The notes beneath the pieces are model-generated. The model saw only the letters and a list, made by a program, of their open reading frames with translations, had not been told where the DNA came from and searched no databases. The position numbers were made by a program, and so were the translations under genes. Shown in pieces: positions 44,611 to 50,997 of a stretch of 64,000 nt of DNA. Position 1 is the stretch's first letter. Each line of letters opens with the position of its first letter. The stretch spans positions 30,606 to 94,605 of the forward strand of contig JACZTG010000008.1 of NCBI GenBank assembly GCA_022573815.1, in the 5' to 3' direction. This DNA comes from Candidatus Neomarinimicrobiota bacterium. GTDB taxonomy: Bacteria > Fidelibacterota > SORT01.

Positions 44611-45507
44611 CTAACCACCCACCCTTTTACGCTTTATTAAAAAATTCTCTAATGCTTTTGCAAGATTTGTAGATGTAGTCAGCTGGTAATAATCAATATT
44701 ATTTTTTCTACAGCCTTTTTTATAGGTATCAAGAAAGCTCTTCATTTTAATCTTATAGTCTTTTCTGATGTGCAATGGATCCACATCAATTCGCTCACCC
44801 GATTCCATATCAGTAAATGAGGCTTCATCGGGAAAATCAAAACTTAATTCTAACGGGTCGAGAATATGGAAAACAACTATCTCGTGTTCTTTATGACGAA
44901 AATGTTTTAGCCCTTTAATTACCTTCTCGGGGTCTTCAAGCAGATCAGACAGAATGATTATTAATCCACGGCGGTGTATCCGTTCCGCTAAATCATGAAA
45001 ATTCGACGATAGGTCGGTATTTCCTCCGGGCGTAATATCTTCCATACGCTCAAGGAGGATCTTCAAATAGGTGGAGCGGGAACTTGGAGGTAAATATGTA
45101 CGGATTTCGTCGTCCATCACACATAACCCCACTGCGTCTCTCTGCTTCAACATCAGATAGATTAGGGAGCCGGCGATATAAGAAGCATATTCCAATTTGG
45201 TTACCCCCCCTGACGAATAATTCATTGAAGAACTGGAATCGAGTAAGATATATGCCTTAAGATTCGTTTCTTCCTCAAATTGTTTTACATAATATTTATC
45301 GGTTTTCCCAAAATGTTTCCAGTCGATATGTCTCGGTTCATCTCCGGGCATATATTGACGATGTTCCGAAAATTCTACGCTAAATCCATGATACGGACTC
45401 CTGTGCAGTCCTGTGATAAAACCCTCAACAACAAGACGGGCGCGAATGTGGCTGTTTTTCACTGTGGATAGCGCGACAGGGTCTAAATATTTTAGGCGAT
45501 TAGCCAT
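44611..45507 (-). CDS. DUF58-domain protein with VWA-like fold
   Basis: A 298-residue cytoplasmic DUF58 protein. The signature GDEPRHIDWKHFGKTDKYYV is followed by AYILLDSSSSM, a DxSxS metal-site motif of the VWA fold. It lies eight bases after a MoxR ATPase gene. MoxR-DUF58 pairs usually act with further VWA and TPR genes in chaperone-like assembly of envelope or enzyme complexes; here the pair stands without those partners. The exact client is unknown. Confidence 0.92.
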   Translation of the reverse strand: MANRLKYLDPVALSTVKNSHIRARLVVEGFITGLHRSPYHGFSVEFSEHRQYMPGDEPRHIDWKHFGKTDKYYVKQFEEETNLKAYILLDSSSSMNYSSGGVTKLEYASYIAGSLIYLMLKQRDAVGLCVMDDEIRTYLPPSSRSTYLKILLERMEDITPGGNTDLSSNFHDLAERIHRRGLIIILSDLLEDPEKVIKGLKHFRHKEHEIVVFHILDPLELSFDFPDEASFTDMESGERIDVDPLHIRKDYKIKMKSFLDTYKKGCRKNNIDYYQLTTSTNLAKALENFLIKRKRVGG

Positions 45508-45515
45508 CCCGGAAT

Positions 45516-46523
45516 CTATTCCTTCTCAGAGGATTCCGTTATGAGATTTTCAATCAATGAATCGGCAGTCACTCCTGAGGATTCAGATGCGAAACTCATT
45601 ACCATCCGATGCCTCAACACGGGCTTTGAAATTGCAATAACATCTTCAATTGACGGCGTGGTTCTTCCATCAAGAAGCGCCCGGGCTTTTGCGCCGAGAA
45701 TTAAATACTGGGATGCCCTGGGACCTGCTCCCCATTCCACCATTTCATTTACTATCGGAAGCGCTCCATTAAGTCCCGGTCTTGTTTGGGATGTCAGGCG
45801 GACGGCGAATTTAATTACATTTTCGGCAACAGGTACCCTCCTCACAAGATTTTGATACTCAATGATCTCTTTCTTTGAAATAATAATTTTGGGAGGTGAC
45901 TCTTGTGTTCCGGTAGTCATTTTGACAATATTTATCTCTTCGGATTCGGAAGGATAATCTATATTTAAGTTGAACATAAATCGGTCGAGCTGAGCTTCCG
46001 GCAAGGGATAGGTTCCTTCCTGCTCAATCGGATTTTGGGTAGCAAGCACAAAAAACGGTTCATCCAGCACATGCGAGTGGCCTGCCGCTGTTACCTGGTG
46101 CTCCTGCATCGCTTCCAACAGCGCAGCTTGAGTCTTAGGCGGAGTACGGTTTATCTCATCAGCAAGCAACATATTGGCGAATATCGGACCCTTAACGAAA
46201 CGAAATTCTCGCTTTCCGGTATTAATTTCCTCTTCCAATATTTCCGTCCCCGTGATATCCGAAGGCATTAAATCAGGAGTGAATTGAATTCTGCTGAAAC
46301 TGAGGTCTATCACCTGAGATAACGTTTTTATCAGGAGAGTTTTTGCCAAACCCGGTACGCCAACAAGCAGACAATGGCCGTTGGAATACAGGGAAAGTAA
46401 AAGACCGGTGATTATCTCTTTTTGACCGACAATTACTTTGCCTATTTCTTCAAGAATATTTTGGTGGGACTCCTGCATGTTATTTGCTAATTCTACATCT
46501 GAAATCTTACTTTTTCTTGCCAT
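45516..46523 (-). CDS. MoxR-family AAA+ ATPase
   Basis: A 335-residue MoxR AAA+ ATPase with Walker A GVPGLAKTLLIKTL, Walker B MLLADEINRTPPKTQAALLE, and sensor 1 FFVLATQNPIEQEGTYPLPE followed by AQLDRF. The C-terminal lid includes GAGPRASQYLILGAKARALL. It powers remodelling by VWA-domain partners, here the DUF58 protein encoded next. Two-gene minus-strand operon, starting about 95 bases after the end of the upstream phosphoesterase gene. Confidence 0.95.
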   Translation of the reverse strand: MARKSKISDVELANNMQESHQNILEEIGKVIVGQKEIITGLLLSLYSNGHCLLVGVPGLAKTLLIKTLSQVIDLSFSRIQFTPDLMPSDITGTEILEEEINTGKREFRFVKGPIFANMLLADEINRTPPKTQAALLEAMQEHQVTAAGHSHVLDEPFFVLATQNPIEQEGTYPLPEAQLDRFMFNLNIDYPSESEEINIVKMTTGTQESPPKIIISKKEIIEYQNLVRRVPVAENVIKFAVRLTSQTRPGLNGALPIVNEMVEWGAGPRASQYLILGAKARALLDGRTTPSIEDVIAISKPVLRHRMVMSFASESSGVTADSLIENLITESSEKE

Positions 46524-46618: not shown

Positions 46619-47827
46619 TTAAAATATTTTAAATTGTTCAATTATTCCTGTTGAATCGGCGTTTCTGCCATTTACAGATTTAACTATCACCTCTATACCG
46701 TTTTCCGTAACGGTAACTACACAATAATTGTACGCTTCTTCTCTTTTCAGCATTTGAACGTTATATCCCATATTCTGCTCGATCTTTATTTTTTCCATTA
46801 CCGATTCGTTAGAAGTCAATGGTCTTACAGGAGTACCTCCTCCGCCTGTAATAACAATATGCATCTGATAGGAGATTTCTTCTTCCTCGTAGCTTAGTAA
46901 ATTATGCTCATAGTAATGTTCGTGACCCGCGAATATCGCATTTACATGATTTTTTTTGAGAACTTTGAAAATCTCGTCACGTTTTCCGCTTATATTATTT
47001 CCCCAATTATCCCTTCTCCAGTCGCCGGAATGTTTACCGAAACTAATAAGAGGATGATGCATAAATATGATTTTGTACTTTTCGTTTGATGATTCCAACT
47101 TTTGCTCAAGCCATGAGGCTTCAGCGGAGCCTGCCTGTGATACAAACCATTTTCGAAAAAGTCTATCCTGTTCATCTCTGCTCCCCAAGTGTCCATCCTG
47201 ATCAAGGATTATTGTAGAATCAATGAAGATGAGTAAAATATCTTTAAAGCGTTTGGTATAAAATTTGGAATTCGGAAATACTCTATTAAAATTTGCCTCA
47301 CCATATTCTTTATGATTAGGATAATCGTGATTTCCTGCTGCGGGATAAATAGGAACTCTCTGCAAGACGGGAATTTCAATTCCTGTTTCTCTCAAAAAAT
47401 ATTCCCAATGACTCGCATATGATCCATTTGTCACTATATCGCCCGTATGAGCGATAAAATCTATATTGTTGTTTTCAATCTCAGCGTACAGCTGTGTGAG
47501 CACAGCGCGACTCTCATCCCGACCAAATACCGGCGTTCCACGAAAATAATTAATGCTGCCATAAAGATCATTCAGGATCAGCCAGGGAGCATAAATCGGA
47601 AATATCAACAGCTTCTGTTTTGACCAGTTATTTTTACTGAACACTAATTTCTCATAAGCTCTGTAAGAAGGGCGATTGTCGCCGTAAACCAGGAATACCG
47701 GATTTCGGTCATATACGCTGACATCAAGCTTAGGAAAGTTATTATAAAGCTCCGGAGGAACCGATTCGCTCACATAGCTTCCGCCTGAACAGCCGGATAT
47801 AAACACCATCAGCAGAGCAAAAATCAA
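46619..47827 (-). CDS. Metallophosphoesterase lipoprotein (calcineurin-like)
   Basis: A 402-residue calcineurin-like phosphoesterase with an N-terminal signal and lipobox (VFISGC). Metal-site motifs are YGDNRPSY (D50), AHTGD130, AAGNHD168, MHHPLISFG and AGHEHYYEH; the first motif has Arg where many relatives have His. The TTG start is uncertain, because the frame stays open upstream and no good ribosome site is visible. It is third in a cluster after an Omp85-type barrel and a kinase-like lipoprotein, so it probably acts in the periplasm or at the outer membrane on phosphorylated substrates. Confidence 0.85.
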   Translation of the reverse strand: MIFALLMVFISGCSGGSYVSESVPPELYNNFPKLDVSVYDRNPVFLVYGDNRPSYRAYEKLVFSKNNWSKQKLLIFPIYAPWLILNDLYGSINYFRGTPVFGRDESRAVLTQLYAEIENNNIDFIAHTGDIVTNGSYASHWEYFLRETGIEIPVLQRVPIYPAAGNHDYPNHKEYGEANFNRVFPNSKFYTKRFKDILLIFIDSTIILDQDGHLGSRDEQDRLFRKWFVSQAGSAEASWLEQKLESSNEKYKIIFMHHPLISFGKHSGDWRRDNWGNNISGKRDEIFKVLKKNHVNAIFAGHEHYYEHNLLSYEEEEISYQMHIVITGGGGTPVRPLTSNESVMEKIKIEQNMGYNVQMLKREEAYNYCVVTVTENGIEVIVKSVNGRNADSTGIIEQFKIF

Positions 47828-47892
47828 CGCAGATAGATTTATTTTACGAAGACTGAGATTTTTCGCGTATTTCAGAAATGCCGAATAAATTA

Positions 47893-49611
47893 TTAATCTC
47901 TCTCTATCGCAATAACTTCATATCCGTTTTTTCTCTCTCGATATGCAACATGAATTCTCACCTTTTTCTTTGAAGCTCCGGATGTTTCGCGTGTAGTTTT
48001 AATCTCTATTTCGTAATTCGGATGCTTAGCATTTGCTCTCACGGATTTTTCCAACAGAAAATCTGATGCATCCACAAGGTTAATTACTCTTTCGGACTTA
48101 TCTTGCTCATTTTTTACTCTCACAGTATATCGATTATTCCGTTTCTCCGCAACACCCGCTTTTAAAGCCATATCAGTAAATGTAAATATGAAATTGTTTG
48201 AACTGTCTTTCGATACTTTAAACTCGTCAAGAGGATTTATTTTACTGAACCAGTAGGATACTACCTTATCTCTTCGTTCGATCAAAATCCTTGTGAGATA
48301 GGCTGCAGCTTCAGGATCAGAAATTTCTCCGGTTTTAACTATTGCTTCTATATCTTCGTCAGAAAAATTCATAACGATTTTTGCGCCCCAATACGCATCA
48401 CGATAAGTCATATTTTCACTGGCAGGATTGGGATACATTCCCACCCAGGATTTCGGATCGAATACTTCCGATTCTATCATTCCTATTGACGTATAGTTAA
48501 GGGAATCAAGACTATCCCAGGGCTCTTCGTACATTCCGAGCATCAGAAATGCTTTGGCAACGTTTTCAAAATCGAAATCATATTCATTTCCATTGCGTGG
48601 AGAATGCGGATGATCCCAACCGCTACCCAATGTTGATCCCATATCTATAAGATAATGCTTTATATACTTTCTGTTCTTTTCATCCGTGATATACATATCG
48701 AGCGTATTTGCCATTCTCCTATCAGTGTCCCCCAACCAGGAACTCAAGACACGCAATCCCCTTAATTCTCTTCTATGTTCGTGATCGACACTATCATTTG
48801 GGTCATCTGCTCTTCTTCCATGAAATTGGAAAGGTCCGATAGGAGAGCCGGTTAACCATTTACTGGCAACTGATCGAATTTTTCCTTCACTGTTTCTCCT
48901 TTGTGAAGAAAGCATTTTTTCTATATCCTCCATCGTCATTTTACGCTCTCTTTTATCCGCAGTAGGCACAACTGCTTCCGGTCCGATTTTTAATTGAGAA
49001 TATTTAAAGTAAAATATATGGTTTTCAGGGACATTGTAGCCCGCGGAGTGAAAAAATTTAGTACTTATAACTTCTGCCGAAGTGGACATCTCATAGAATC
49101 CGGGTCCATCAAATTTTAAAAAATATTTATCGCCCTTTGAGTCAATAATTATAAATCCAATGGACACTCCTTCAAACTTCCCCTTAATAATAGTTATAAC
49201 ACCTGAAGAATCCGGTCCGTCTGTACTATTTGGTCCCCTCATTAGCTCTTCTACACTCATTCGATTCTTTCCGTGCCGGTGTGTAAACCATGTGGAATTC
49301 GGATTATCATCAAGACTGTTTAAATTGTCGGCTTCTCTGGAACCGACGATTCCTAAATTGTAGCCGATTTTTCTTGAAACCCATCCGATATCAAGCACTT
49401 TTCCTATCTCGTAAAATCCGTCATGTTCTATAATGTCCCATAGTTGGTTTTCAGCGTTCTCTTTCGGGACCGAAATGTGCTCTCTGTCGCTTTCTATCCA
49501 AGCCGGTGTGTGATTATAATTGATTTTCTCAGAAGTACACCCAAAAAAAGTGATGAGTACTGCAGGGTATAAAAGACGTTGAAATCTTTTACTATGTTTT
49601 GTTAATCTCAT
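47893..49611 (-). CDS. Lipoprotein with HipA-like atypical kinase signature
   Basis: A 572-residue lipoprotein (lipobox ITFFGC, Cys25) of no assigned family known to me. Its middle reads like an atypical kinase fold. It has a beta-strand Lys, K166 in GDKYFLKFDG; a helix Glu, E180 in MSTSAEVIST; then AGYNVPENHIFYF, a HipA-like hinge. The catalytic loop SWLGDTDRRMANTL has D297 and N302, and HYLIDMGSTLG has metal-site D323. All five key positions are in the right order. The first 130 and last 150 residues are unrecognised. Kinase activity outside the cytoplasm is inference. Confidence 0.6.
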   Translation of the reverse strand: MRLTKHSKRFQRLLYPAVLITFFGCTSEKINYNHTPAWIESDREHISVPKENAENQLWDIIEHDGFYEIGKVLDIGWVSRKIGYNLGIVGSREADNLNSLDDNPNSTWFTHRHGKNRMSVEELMRGPNSTDGPDSSGVITIIKGKFEGVSIGFIIIDSKGDKYFLKFDGPGFYEMSTSAEVISTKFFHSAGYNVPENHIFYFKYSQLKIGPEAVVPTADKRERKMTMEDIEKMLSSQRRNSEGKIRSVASKWLTGSPIGPFQFHGRRADDPNDSVDHEHRRELRGLRVLSSWLGDTDRRMANTLDMYITDEKNRKYIKHYLIDMGSTLGSGWDHPHSPRNGNEYDFDFENVAKAFLMLGMYEEPWDSLDSLNYTSIGMIESEVFDPKSWVGMYPNPASENMTYRDAYWGAKIVMNFSDEDIEAIVKTGEISDPEAAAYLTRILIERRDKVVSYWFSKINPLDEFKVSKDSSNNFIFTFTDMALKAGVAEKRNNRYTVRVKNEQDKSERVINLVDASDFLLEKSVRANAKHPNYEIEIKTTRETSGASKKKVRIHVAYRERKNGYEVIAIERD

Positions 49612-49620
49612 TCACAAATC

Positions 49621-50997
49621 TCAGTTGAATATCTGCGAAAATTGCGCTACTGTACGATGACCTTCTGAACTATATCCCACCTGAATTCGCGCAAGAAAAC
49701 TATTCTTCAGTCTTAGCCTTACCCCTGCTCCGTAGCCGGTATGCAAAGAGGAATATTTCACATCATCCAAATCCTTATAAACCTGTCCTGTATCAAGGAA
49801 TATTACACCGTCGAAACTATCCCATATCGGATAGCGGTATTCGAAATTGGCAAGCAGCGAACCAAAATCCCTGAATCTACCTTCTTTGAATCCCCTGAGA
49901 GTATCGTGGGAACCAAGGATACTCATTCGATAAAATGGAATGACTTTCCCTTTGGGTCTTGCAGTCCCATCAAGAATAACTCGAAACGCAAACACCCGGT
50001 TTTTCTTAAACAGCTCGATATATTTTTGATACTCTACAGTGTAGCGCAAATATCTAAATTCGGACCCATTCATTTGTCGTGTATATTCTGTGAACAACCG
50101 CAGCAGATTCCCCATTCTCGGATTAAACTCGTGATTCCTTGTATCATAGGTCCACTGAATCCCTGTTTCAAAAAGCGTTGTATTTCCATACCCTAAAATT
50201 GTAGTAGGTACGGTGGGGTAACGGTTGAGCCCCTCGTCAATATTTACTTCACTGAAACGGAGAAACAGTTTGGTTGTAAAATGATTAGCTCTACCTCGCT
50301 TCCTCCGTCTTTGATAATCCGTCATAACATAGCGACCGGATTCTTTTTCCCATTTAATCGTCCAGTCTATCTCGATATATTTATCATCAATTCCATATGC
50401 CAGACTATCATTGACCAATGAGCTGTTTCCACCAATGCCATAAACCACTTCCTCATCGTCACTCCATAAAATTGCTGAAACGCCCAGACTGCCGGAGTTA
50501 TTACTAACAGGCATCCTATACTTCGCTCCGACGAAAATATTATCAGGATTGTGATAAAGACCGAAACCAGAAATTGAAATATTCTTATTTCTAAGGTTGT
50601 TGTCAAATAAAGCTATACCGGCCGAAAAATTATTTTTGCCACCGATAGACGCTATTGGGAATATACCTGCGGTCCTATCTTCATTCATCAAAATATTTAG
50701 CACTCGCCGGTCTATTCTATTGCTTTCTCCCCAAATAACAATCTCTCCTAACGGTTTGTACAGTTGCGTCCAAATTGTGCTTGGAAGTGCGAGAATATGC
50801 TGTGGTATATTTTTTCGGGATTGAAATTTGATTACTCTGACAGAATCTCTTTCACTCACATTAAGGCTATCACGTGCGGATAAATTATCCGGCGCCATCA
50901 CTATCAATATTGCTGATATTAACAGCATTACTAATATTGAACTCTTCAACATAGTTGGAGAATAATTGTTTTCCGGTATTTGATGCGCTGAGTTCAT
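49621..50997 (-). CDS. Omp85/BamA-type outer-membrane barrel without POTRA domains
   Basis: A 458-residue protein with a signal sequence (about 16-42) and a C-terminal surface-antigen (D15) barrel. The barrel motif is GSHDTLRGFKEGRFRDFGSL, the counterpart of the VRGF lock of BamA, then NFEYRYPIWDSFDGVIFLDT, and a terminal aromatic strand. There is too little sequence ahead of the barrel for POTRA domains. It heads a cluster with the kinase-like lipoprotein (9 bases on) and a phosphoesterase, and might carry or display them. Alternative start at Met16. Confidence 0.85.
   Translation of the reverse strand: MNSAHQIPENNYSPTMLKSSILVMLLISAILIVMAPDNLSARDSLNVSERDSVRVIKFQSRKNIPQHILALPSTIWTQLYKPLGEIVIWGESNRIDRRVLNILMNEDRTAGIFPIASIGGKNNFSAGIALFDNNLRNKNISISGFGLYHNPDNIFVGAKYRMPVSNNSGSLGVSAILWSDDEEVVYGIGGNSSLVNDSLAYGIDDKYIEIDWTIKWEKESGRYVMTDYQRRRKRGRANHFTTKLFLRFSEVNIDEGLNRYPTVPTTILGYGNTTLFETGIQWTYDTRNHEFNPRMGNLLRLFTEYTRQMNGSEFRYLRYTVEYQKYIELFKKNRVFAFRVILDGTARPKGKVIPFYRMSILGSHDTLRGFKEGRFRDFGSLLANFEYRYPIWDSFDGVIFLDTGQVYKDLDDVKYSSLHTGYGAGVRLRLKNSFLARIQVGYSSEGHRTVAQFSQIFN

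Follow-up and report, generated by a model that had tools for sequence, protein, structure and literature searches.

An exported HipA-like kinase-fold lipoprotein paired with an Omp85-type barrel and associated with ATP/ADP carriers: a candidate envelope phosphorylation module in two bacterial phyla

Gene organization of the locus

We analyzed a DNA stretch of 64,000 nucleotides (the window) from a Candidatus Neomarinimicrobiota bacterium (assembly GCA_022573815.1, contig JACZTG010000008.1, positions 30,606 to 94,605), which contains a three-gene cluster encoding an outer-membrane barrel of the Omp85 superfamily, a kinase-like lipoprotein of 572 amino acid residues and a metallophosphoesterase lipoprotein. 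A previous reading of the window based on its letters alone (the sequence-only reading) had noted gaps of 9 bases between the barrel gene and that of the 572-residue protein and 65 bases between the latter and the phosphoesterase gene; the same coordinates and gaps were obtained here, with all three open reading frames (ORFs) on the minus strand. The genes and their predicted features are the following:

49621-50997, minus strand: Omp85-superfamily outer-membrane barrel without POTRA domain, 458 amino acids, first gene of the unit (Pfam Omp85)
47893-49611, minus strand: predicted exported HipA-like kinase-fold lipoprotein, 572 amino acids (HipA_2 profile match, conserved catalytic residues, Foldseek search of the core model)
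49537-49611, minus strand: signal peptide and lipobox of the 572-residue protein, residues 1-25 with Cys25 (hydrophobic stretch ending ITFFGC)
48217-49197, minus strand: predicted kinase core, residues ~139-465 (region aligned to HipA_2; N-lobe b1-b2-b3-aC predicted with a local distance difference test score, pLDDT, of ~65-78)
49114-49116, minus strand: codon of K166, the strand-3 lysine (K in 36 of 47 homologs; aligned to the HipA_2 Lys)
48721-48723, minus strand: codon of D297, the catalytic-loop aspartate (D in 36 of 47 homologs; aligned to the HipA_2 DR...N loop)
48643-48645, minus strand: codon of D323, the metal-binding (DFG-like) aspartate (D in 43 of 47 homologs; aligned to the Asp of the HipA_2 IDH motif)
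47896-48231, minus strand: C-terminal beta-rich domain, residues ~461-572, possibly FN3/Ig-like, a weak assignment (all-beta in the low-confidence full-length model)
46619-47827, minus strand: metallophosphoesterase lipoprotein, 402 amino acids, probable phosphatase partner (Pfam Metallophos, metal motifs, lipobox)

Kinase fold of the 572-residue protein

In Pfam, the 572-residue protein has no match above threshold; of those below it, HipA_C is the relevant one (0.039, residues 158-240). No match was found in NCBIfam. The best single-protein scores in the family were about 14 bits for HipA_C (cut-off 30.5) and 13.1 bits for HipA_2 (cut-off 27), which leaves it outside formal membership of both Pfam families. 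Forty further neighbourhoods were collected, and 47 family members from two phyla were aligned. All five putative kinase residues (K166, E180, D297, N302 and D323) are kept in 33 of the 47 aligned homologs and at least four of them in 36. A profile of these 36 intact members was compared by hhalign with a profile of 29 HipA_2 proteins (PF20613), and aligned over 239 columns (146-472) with a P-value of 4.6e-7, a probability of 92.6 and a score of 60.6. The five residues (the strand-3 Lys, the Glu of helix C, the catalytic Asp, the Asn and the metal Asp) all fell on their HipA_2 counterparts. By comparison, the maximum score was 23.0 in 60 column shuffles and 18.5 with the reversed profile. The HipA_C profile aligns at the N-lobe more weakly than HipA_2 (P 0.0016 to 0.0042), and an earlier profile comparison using incomplete HipA sets, superseded by the fuller one, gave no signal. 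Since the family profile matches that of HipA_2 kinases with these residues aligned, the kinase order of motifs which the sequence-only reading had pointed out (Lys166 strand, Glu180 helix, D297/N302 loop and D323), together with its likeness to HipA, is real and conserved, not a product of chance.

AlphaFold2 models were built from four sequences and reached a pLDDT of 40.4 for the full-length protein and 39.5 for the core, so the model was set aside as stand-alone proof of the fold. Nevertheless, nearly all of the top 40 PDB matches of the low-confidence core model in Foldseek were kinases (best E-value 0.018, none below 0.001), including an Entamoeba alpha-kinase, Golgi casein kinase/Fam20C among the first, Src, AAK1 and TTK. 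The full-length model matched only FN3-type domains (E-value >0.004), which is ascribed to its C-terminal part. Sequence searches of the PDB found no relatives of the family, and a comparison with CotH kinases (PF08757) gave a P-value of about 0.5 in hhalign and no match in Pfam. None of the three outcomes that the sequence-only reading had named as refuting it (a predicted fold unlike kinases, poor conservation of K166, D297 and D323, or lack of co-occurrence with the barrel and the phosphoesterase) was observed. Motifs, profile comparison and low-confidence core model taken together, a remote HipA-like kinase fold is a well-supported prediction, and the retention of the catalytic residues suggests that the protein may be an active kinase.

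Export signals and the Omp85 barrel partner

The window protein shows a lipobox, FFGC, with its cysteine at residue 25, and cleaner lipoboxes are found in relatives, with the cysteine present at the matching place in most intact members. A related subgroup, made up of L080, L082, L083 and the clade lacking catalytic residues described below, has conventional Sec signal peptides whose ends lie near AQxF; a few GC-rich members with over-extended start calls were left out of this judgement. Because signal peptides of one or the other type occur across the family, its members are predicted to be extracytoplasmic, as anchored or as soluble proteins, and the exported, lipidated nature previously proposed for the window protein is plausible.

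The 458-residue barrel protein matches Pfam Omp85 (1.9e-25) over residues 193-442. No POTRA domain was matched in it by Pfam, and only about 110 residues precede the barrel region, which bears out its description as a POTRA-less Omp85 protein. Furthermore, the barrel family profile matches the BamA/TamA barrels in the PDB, and the RGF loop motif is present. The barrel gene is located directly upstream of the kinase-like gene, on the same strand and usually within 75 bases, in 46 of the 47 loci, so that the association noticed in the window holds across the family. Only L012, a lone paralog, departs from this arrangement.

Distribution of the family

The source genome (G000, 2.39 Mb in 65 contigs) contains three copies of the kinase-like family: the window protein and two paralogs, 64% identical to it on contig C25 and 34% identical on contig C7. 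The 64% paralog (L012, 4342-6045) stands alone by histidine-biosynthesis-like genes, with neither barrel nor carrier. Among 199 sampled genomes of the phylum, the family was found in all five genomes of the same taxonomic family and in none of the other 194. The second phylum is represented by metagenome-assembled genomes of Balneolaceae and by 42 of 245 genomes of their class (the class of G199); in the wider phylum, 15 of 396 genomes were positive, all of them already among the class-level positives, and the family therefore extends hardly beyond the class. Searches of plasmids and viral contigs showed no relatives of the kinase-like family. A role in anti-phage defence was considered and rejected, as PADLOC matched neither the barrel nor the kinase, and the phosphoesterase only weakly.

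ATP/ADP carriers accompany the intact form

The partner found most often with the intact form is a carrier of the NTT family (PF03219), which the sequence-only reading did not mention and which is usually adjacent in relatives. An NTT gene was found within four genes in 29 of 36 intact loci, and in 28 of these it shares the strand of the barrel and kinase genes. It lies upstream of the former or downstream of the latter, in some cases 10-12 bases away or overlapping (e.g. L057, L061 and L058). The chance of finding one within four genes of a random site in such genomes is about 1%, as a rough estimate. Seven intact loci have no NTT nearby, and four of these (L010, L015, L080 and L084) lie near a contig end. 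The carriers beside the kinase show two forms, a short one of about 450 residues and a HEAT-repeat fusion of about 900 residues, with PF03219 over its cut-off. The short carriers match the solved ADP,ATP carriers 9j3j, from chloroplast (5e-28), and 9j3n (1.1e-25); these matches, together with PF03219, led us to reject a generic major facilitator superfamily identity.

At the genome level, PF03219 was found in 30 of the 42 kinase-family-positive genomes of the class of G199 and in 10 of the 203 negative ones. In the source genome the NTTs lie away from the window cluster: a short one beside the barrel-kinase paralog pair on C7 and a long one on C26. In other families of the same phylum, NTTs of about 1050 residues are found in many genomes lacking the kinase.

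A clade without catalytic residues

In one clade (L085-L096; eleven aligned loci, as L094 is partial and was left out of the alignment), K166, E180, D297 and N302 have been lost together (e.g. L-A-K-H), while each member is still paired with a barrel. Judged by their sequences, these proteins are natural exported pseudokinases. No NTT is located near any of the 11 dead loci, versus 29 of 36 intact ones (Fisher test, 1.8e-6). Six genomes which carry only the dead form show no PF03219 match anywhere, and in genomes with both forms (G381, G383, G384, G391, G395 and G402) the NTT is found beside the intact copy only. The pseudokinase clade without carriers is a built-in natural control.

Metallophosphoesterase lipoproteins

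The phosphoesterase of the window matches Pfam Metallophos (PF00149, 2e-18), with the motifs GD, GD, GNHD and GHEH and an FISGC lipobox. Homologs of this type, with 31-49% identity, are found at L014, L015, L080, L081 and L083. In one lineage, metallophosphoesterases of a second subfamily, with metal motifs and N-termini that resemble lipoboxes, are encoded next to the kinase gene or close to it (L057, 1240-2385; L058, 8696-9847; L059, 5844-6983; L060, 5828-6982; L061, 13376-14572; and L079, 8172-9833). Phosphoesterase lipoproteins of both subfamilies were found at intact-form loci only, the kinase form of L079 being split. The recurrence of two subfamilies indicates that the kinase-phosphatase pairing is recurrent but optional: the phosphoesterase proposed as a module partner is a real one, although it is present at only about a quarter of the loci and belongs to two subfamilies. 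In L079, the phosphoesterase is followed by a larger second ORF with an Omp85 domain.

In the window, a gene pair encoding a MoxR ATPase and a DUF58 protein (44611-46523) lies on the same strand 95 bases downstream of the phosphoesterase gene; its recurrence with the module was not seen.

Discussion

We lean slightly towards a reading in which the 572-residue protein is an extracytoplasmic HipA-like kinase anchored in the outer membrane, with an Omp85 barrel as partner, ATP provided by an NTT, a substrate in the envelope or on the surface, and a phosphoesterase that opposes it or recycles its products. The NTT would carry ATP outward across the inner membrane in exchange for ADP, and the kinase would use the exported ATP to phosphorylate its envelope or surface substrate. 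The dedicated Omp85-type barrel would assemble, hold or display the kinase, and the phosphoesterase lipoprotein would reverse the phosphorylation or recycle the products. A supply of ATP is preferred over unrelated transport because the carrier associated with the family is an ATP/ADP carrier and is linked with intact ATP-handling residues. The sequences themselves show the export signals, the kinase-type profile and motifs, the constancy of the barrel-kinase unit and its association with the carrier, from which catalysis, the use of ATP as co-substrate, the direction of transport, the substrate and the roles of barrel and phosphatase are inferred.

Several points weigh against this proposal. 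For the family, every Pfam kinase model stays below its threshold, and the structure predictions are of low quality (pLDDT about 40). The window locus itself has no adjacent NTT. Furthermore, NTTs are present in many genomes without this kinase, and those of kinase-less genomes in the same phylum indicate that NTTs also have other roles there; an outward carriage of ATP is presumed here, as the direction of transport is not readable from sequence. The catalytic residues were lost in a single event on the tree, so the correlation between intact residues and NTT is not statistically independent. Finally, the barrel-kinase pair persists where the catalytic residues are lost, which suggests that part of its role does not depend on ATP.

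The main rival is nucleotide scavenging, where the barrel would admit nucleotides, the kinase-fold lipoprotein would bind or process them, the phosphoesterase would trim them and the NTT would import them. NTTs of intracellular parasites import nucleotides, a barrel with a surface lipoprotein and an inner-membrane carrier resembles a nutrient uptake system, and phosphoesterase lipoproteins recur at the loci. However, a binding protein does not need the full K-E-D-N-D catalytic set, the barrel belongs to the Omp85 assembly and secretion superfamily and is neither a porin nor a TonB receptor, and genomes that have no NTT at all still keep the barrel-kinase pair; we consider scavenging unlikely. 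The constancy of the barrel directly upstream, at all dead loci included, would also fit an outer-membrane assembly or display factor, in which the kinase-fold protein is mainly a pseudokinase-like scaffold of the barrel and ATP binding is at most a switch. Strict conservation of the catalytic residues in 33-36 members over very long divergence, followed by their joint loss, and the presence of NTT genes beside the intact form only make such a scaffold quite improbable. Slightly less probable again is a different extracytoplasmic ATP-dependent modification, such as AMPylation, polyglutamylation or phosphorylation of glycans or lipids. AMPylation and glutamylation by kinase folds, and a polyglutamylating bacterial pseudokinase, are on record, and Fam20-type kinases rank high among the fold matches of the core model; nevertheless, the residues follow the pattern of ordinary phosphotransfer kinases, in normal order relative to HipA_2, and nothing at the loci indicates a glycan or a lipid.

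The phosphorylation module proposed here can be compared with several known systems. HipA proteins are cytoplasmic and HipA is paired with HipB. The window family shares the kinase-type profile and the order of catalytic residues with HipA_2 (PF20613), over the whole core, and HipA_C (PF07804), but its members are exported and longer, with an insertion and a beta domain at the C-terminus, and their genes sit beside those of Omp85 barrels and NTTs. By inspection, no HipB-like gene was found among the recurrent neighbours and signal peptides occur throughout, unlike in HipA toxins. Fam20C is likewise extracytoplasmic and needs ATP imported into its compartment; it differs in being eukaryotic, in showing no significant sequence relation to the family and in having no Omp85 or NTT partner. 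BamA and TamA share the barrel profile and RGF loop with the window barrel, which differs in its absence of POTRA and in being gene-paired with an exported kinase-like protein. CotH kinases are also bacterial and belong to the spore coat, which is an extracellular structure (PMC7821199); their profile does not match the window family. The adjacent carriers, short and HEAT-fusion alike, belong to PF03219; NTTs also occur in free-living bacteria, beyond the characterized set, and the function of the NTT fusion proteins is unknown (PMC5381601). Those described here differ from known NTTs in sitting with an exported kinase.

The bacterial periplasm is generally regarded as having no known source of ATP. 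The movement of ATP from the cytosol into the periplasm is described as unclear in a review of 2020 (PMC7432876). No report of such a system was found in the open-access literature, which was the scope of the search, subscription papers and preprints lying outside it, and we rate the module as previously undescribed, a new combination of components that belong to known superfamilies. We see an even chance that some free-living bacteria use periplasmic ATP exported by NTTs, with which an Omp85-linked HipA-like kinase phosphorylates envelope or surface substrates, opposed by lipoprotein phosphoesterases. If true, this would be an ATP-powered phosphorylation of the bacterial envelope, parallel to phosphorylation in the animal secretory pathway, and would give the NTTs of free-living bacteria a function. 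Such a module would link the question of periplasmic ATP supply with that of the function of NTT fusions, and would open both to direct tests in cultured Balneolaceae or their relatives.
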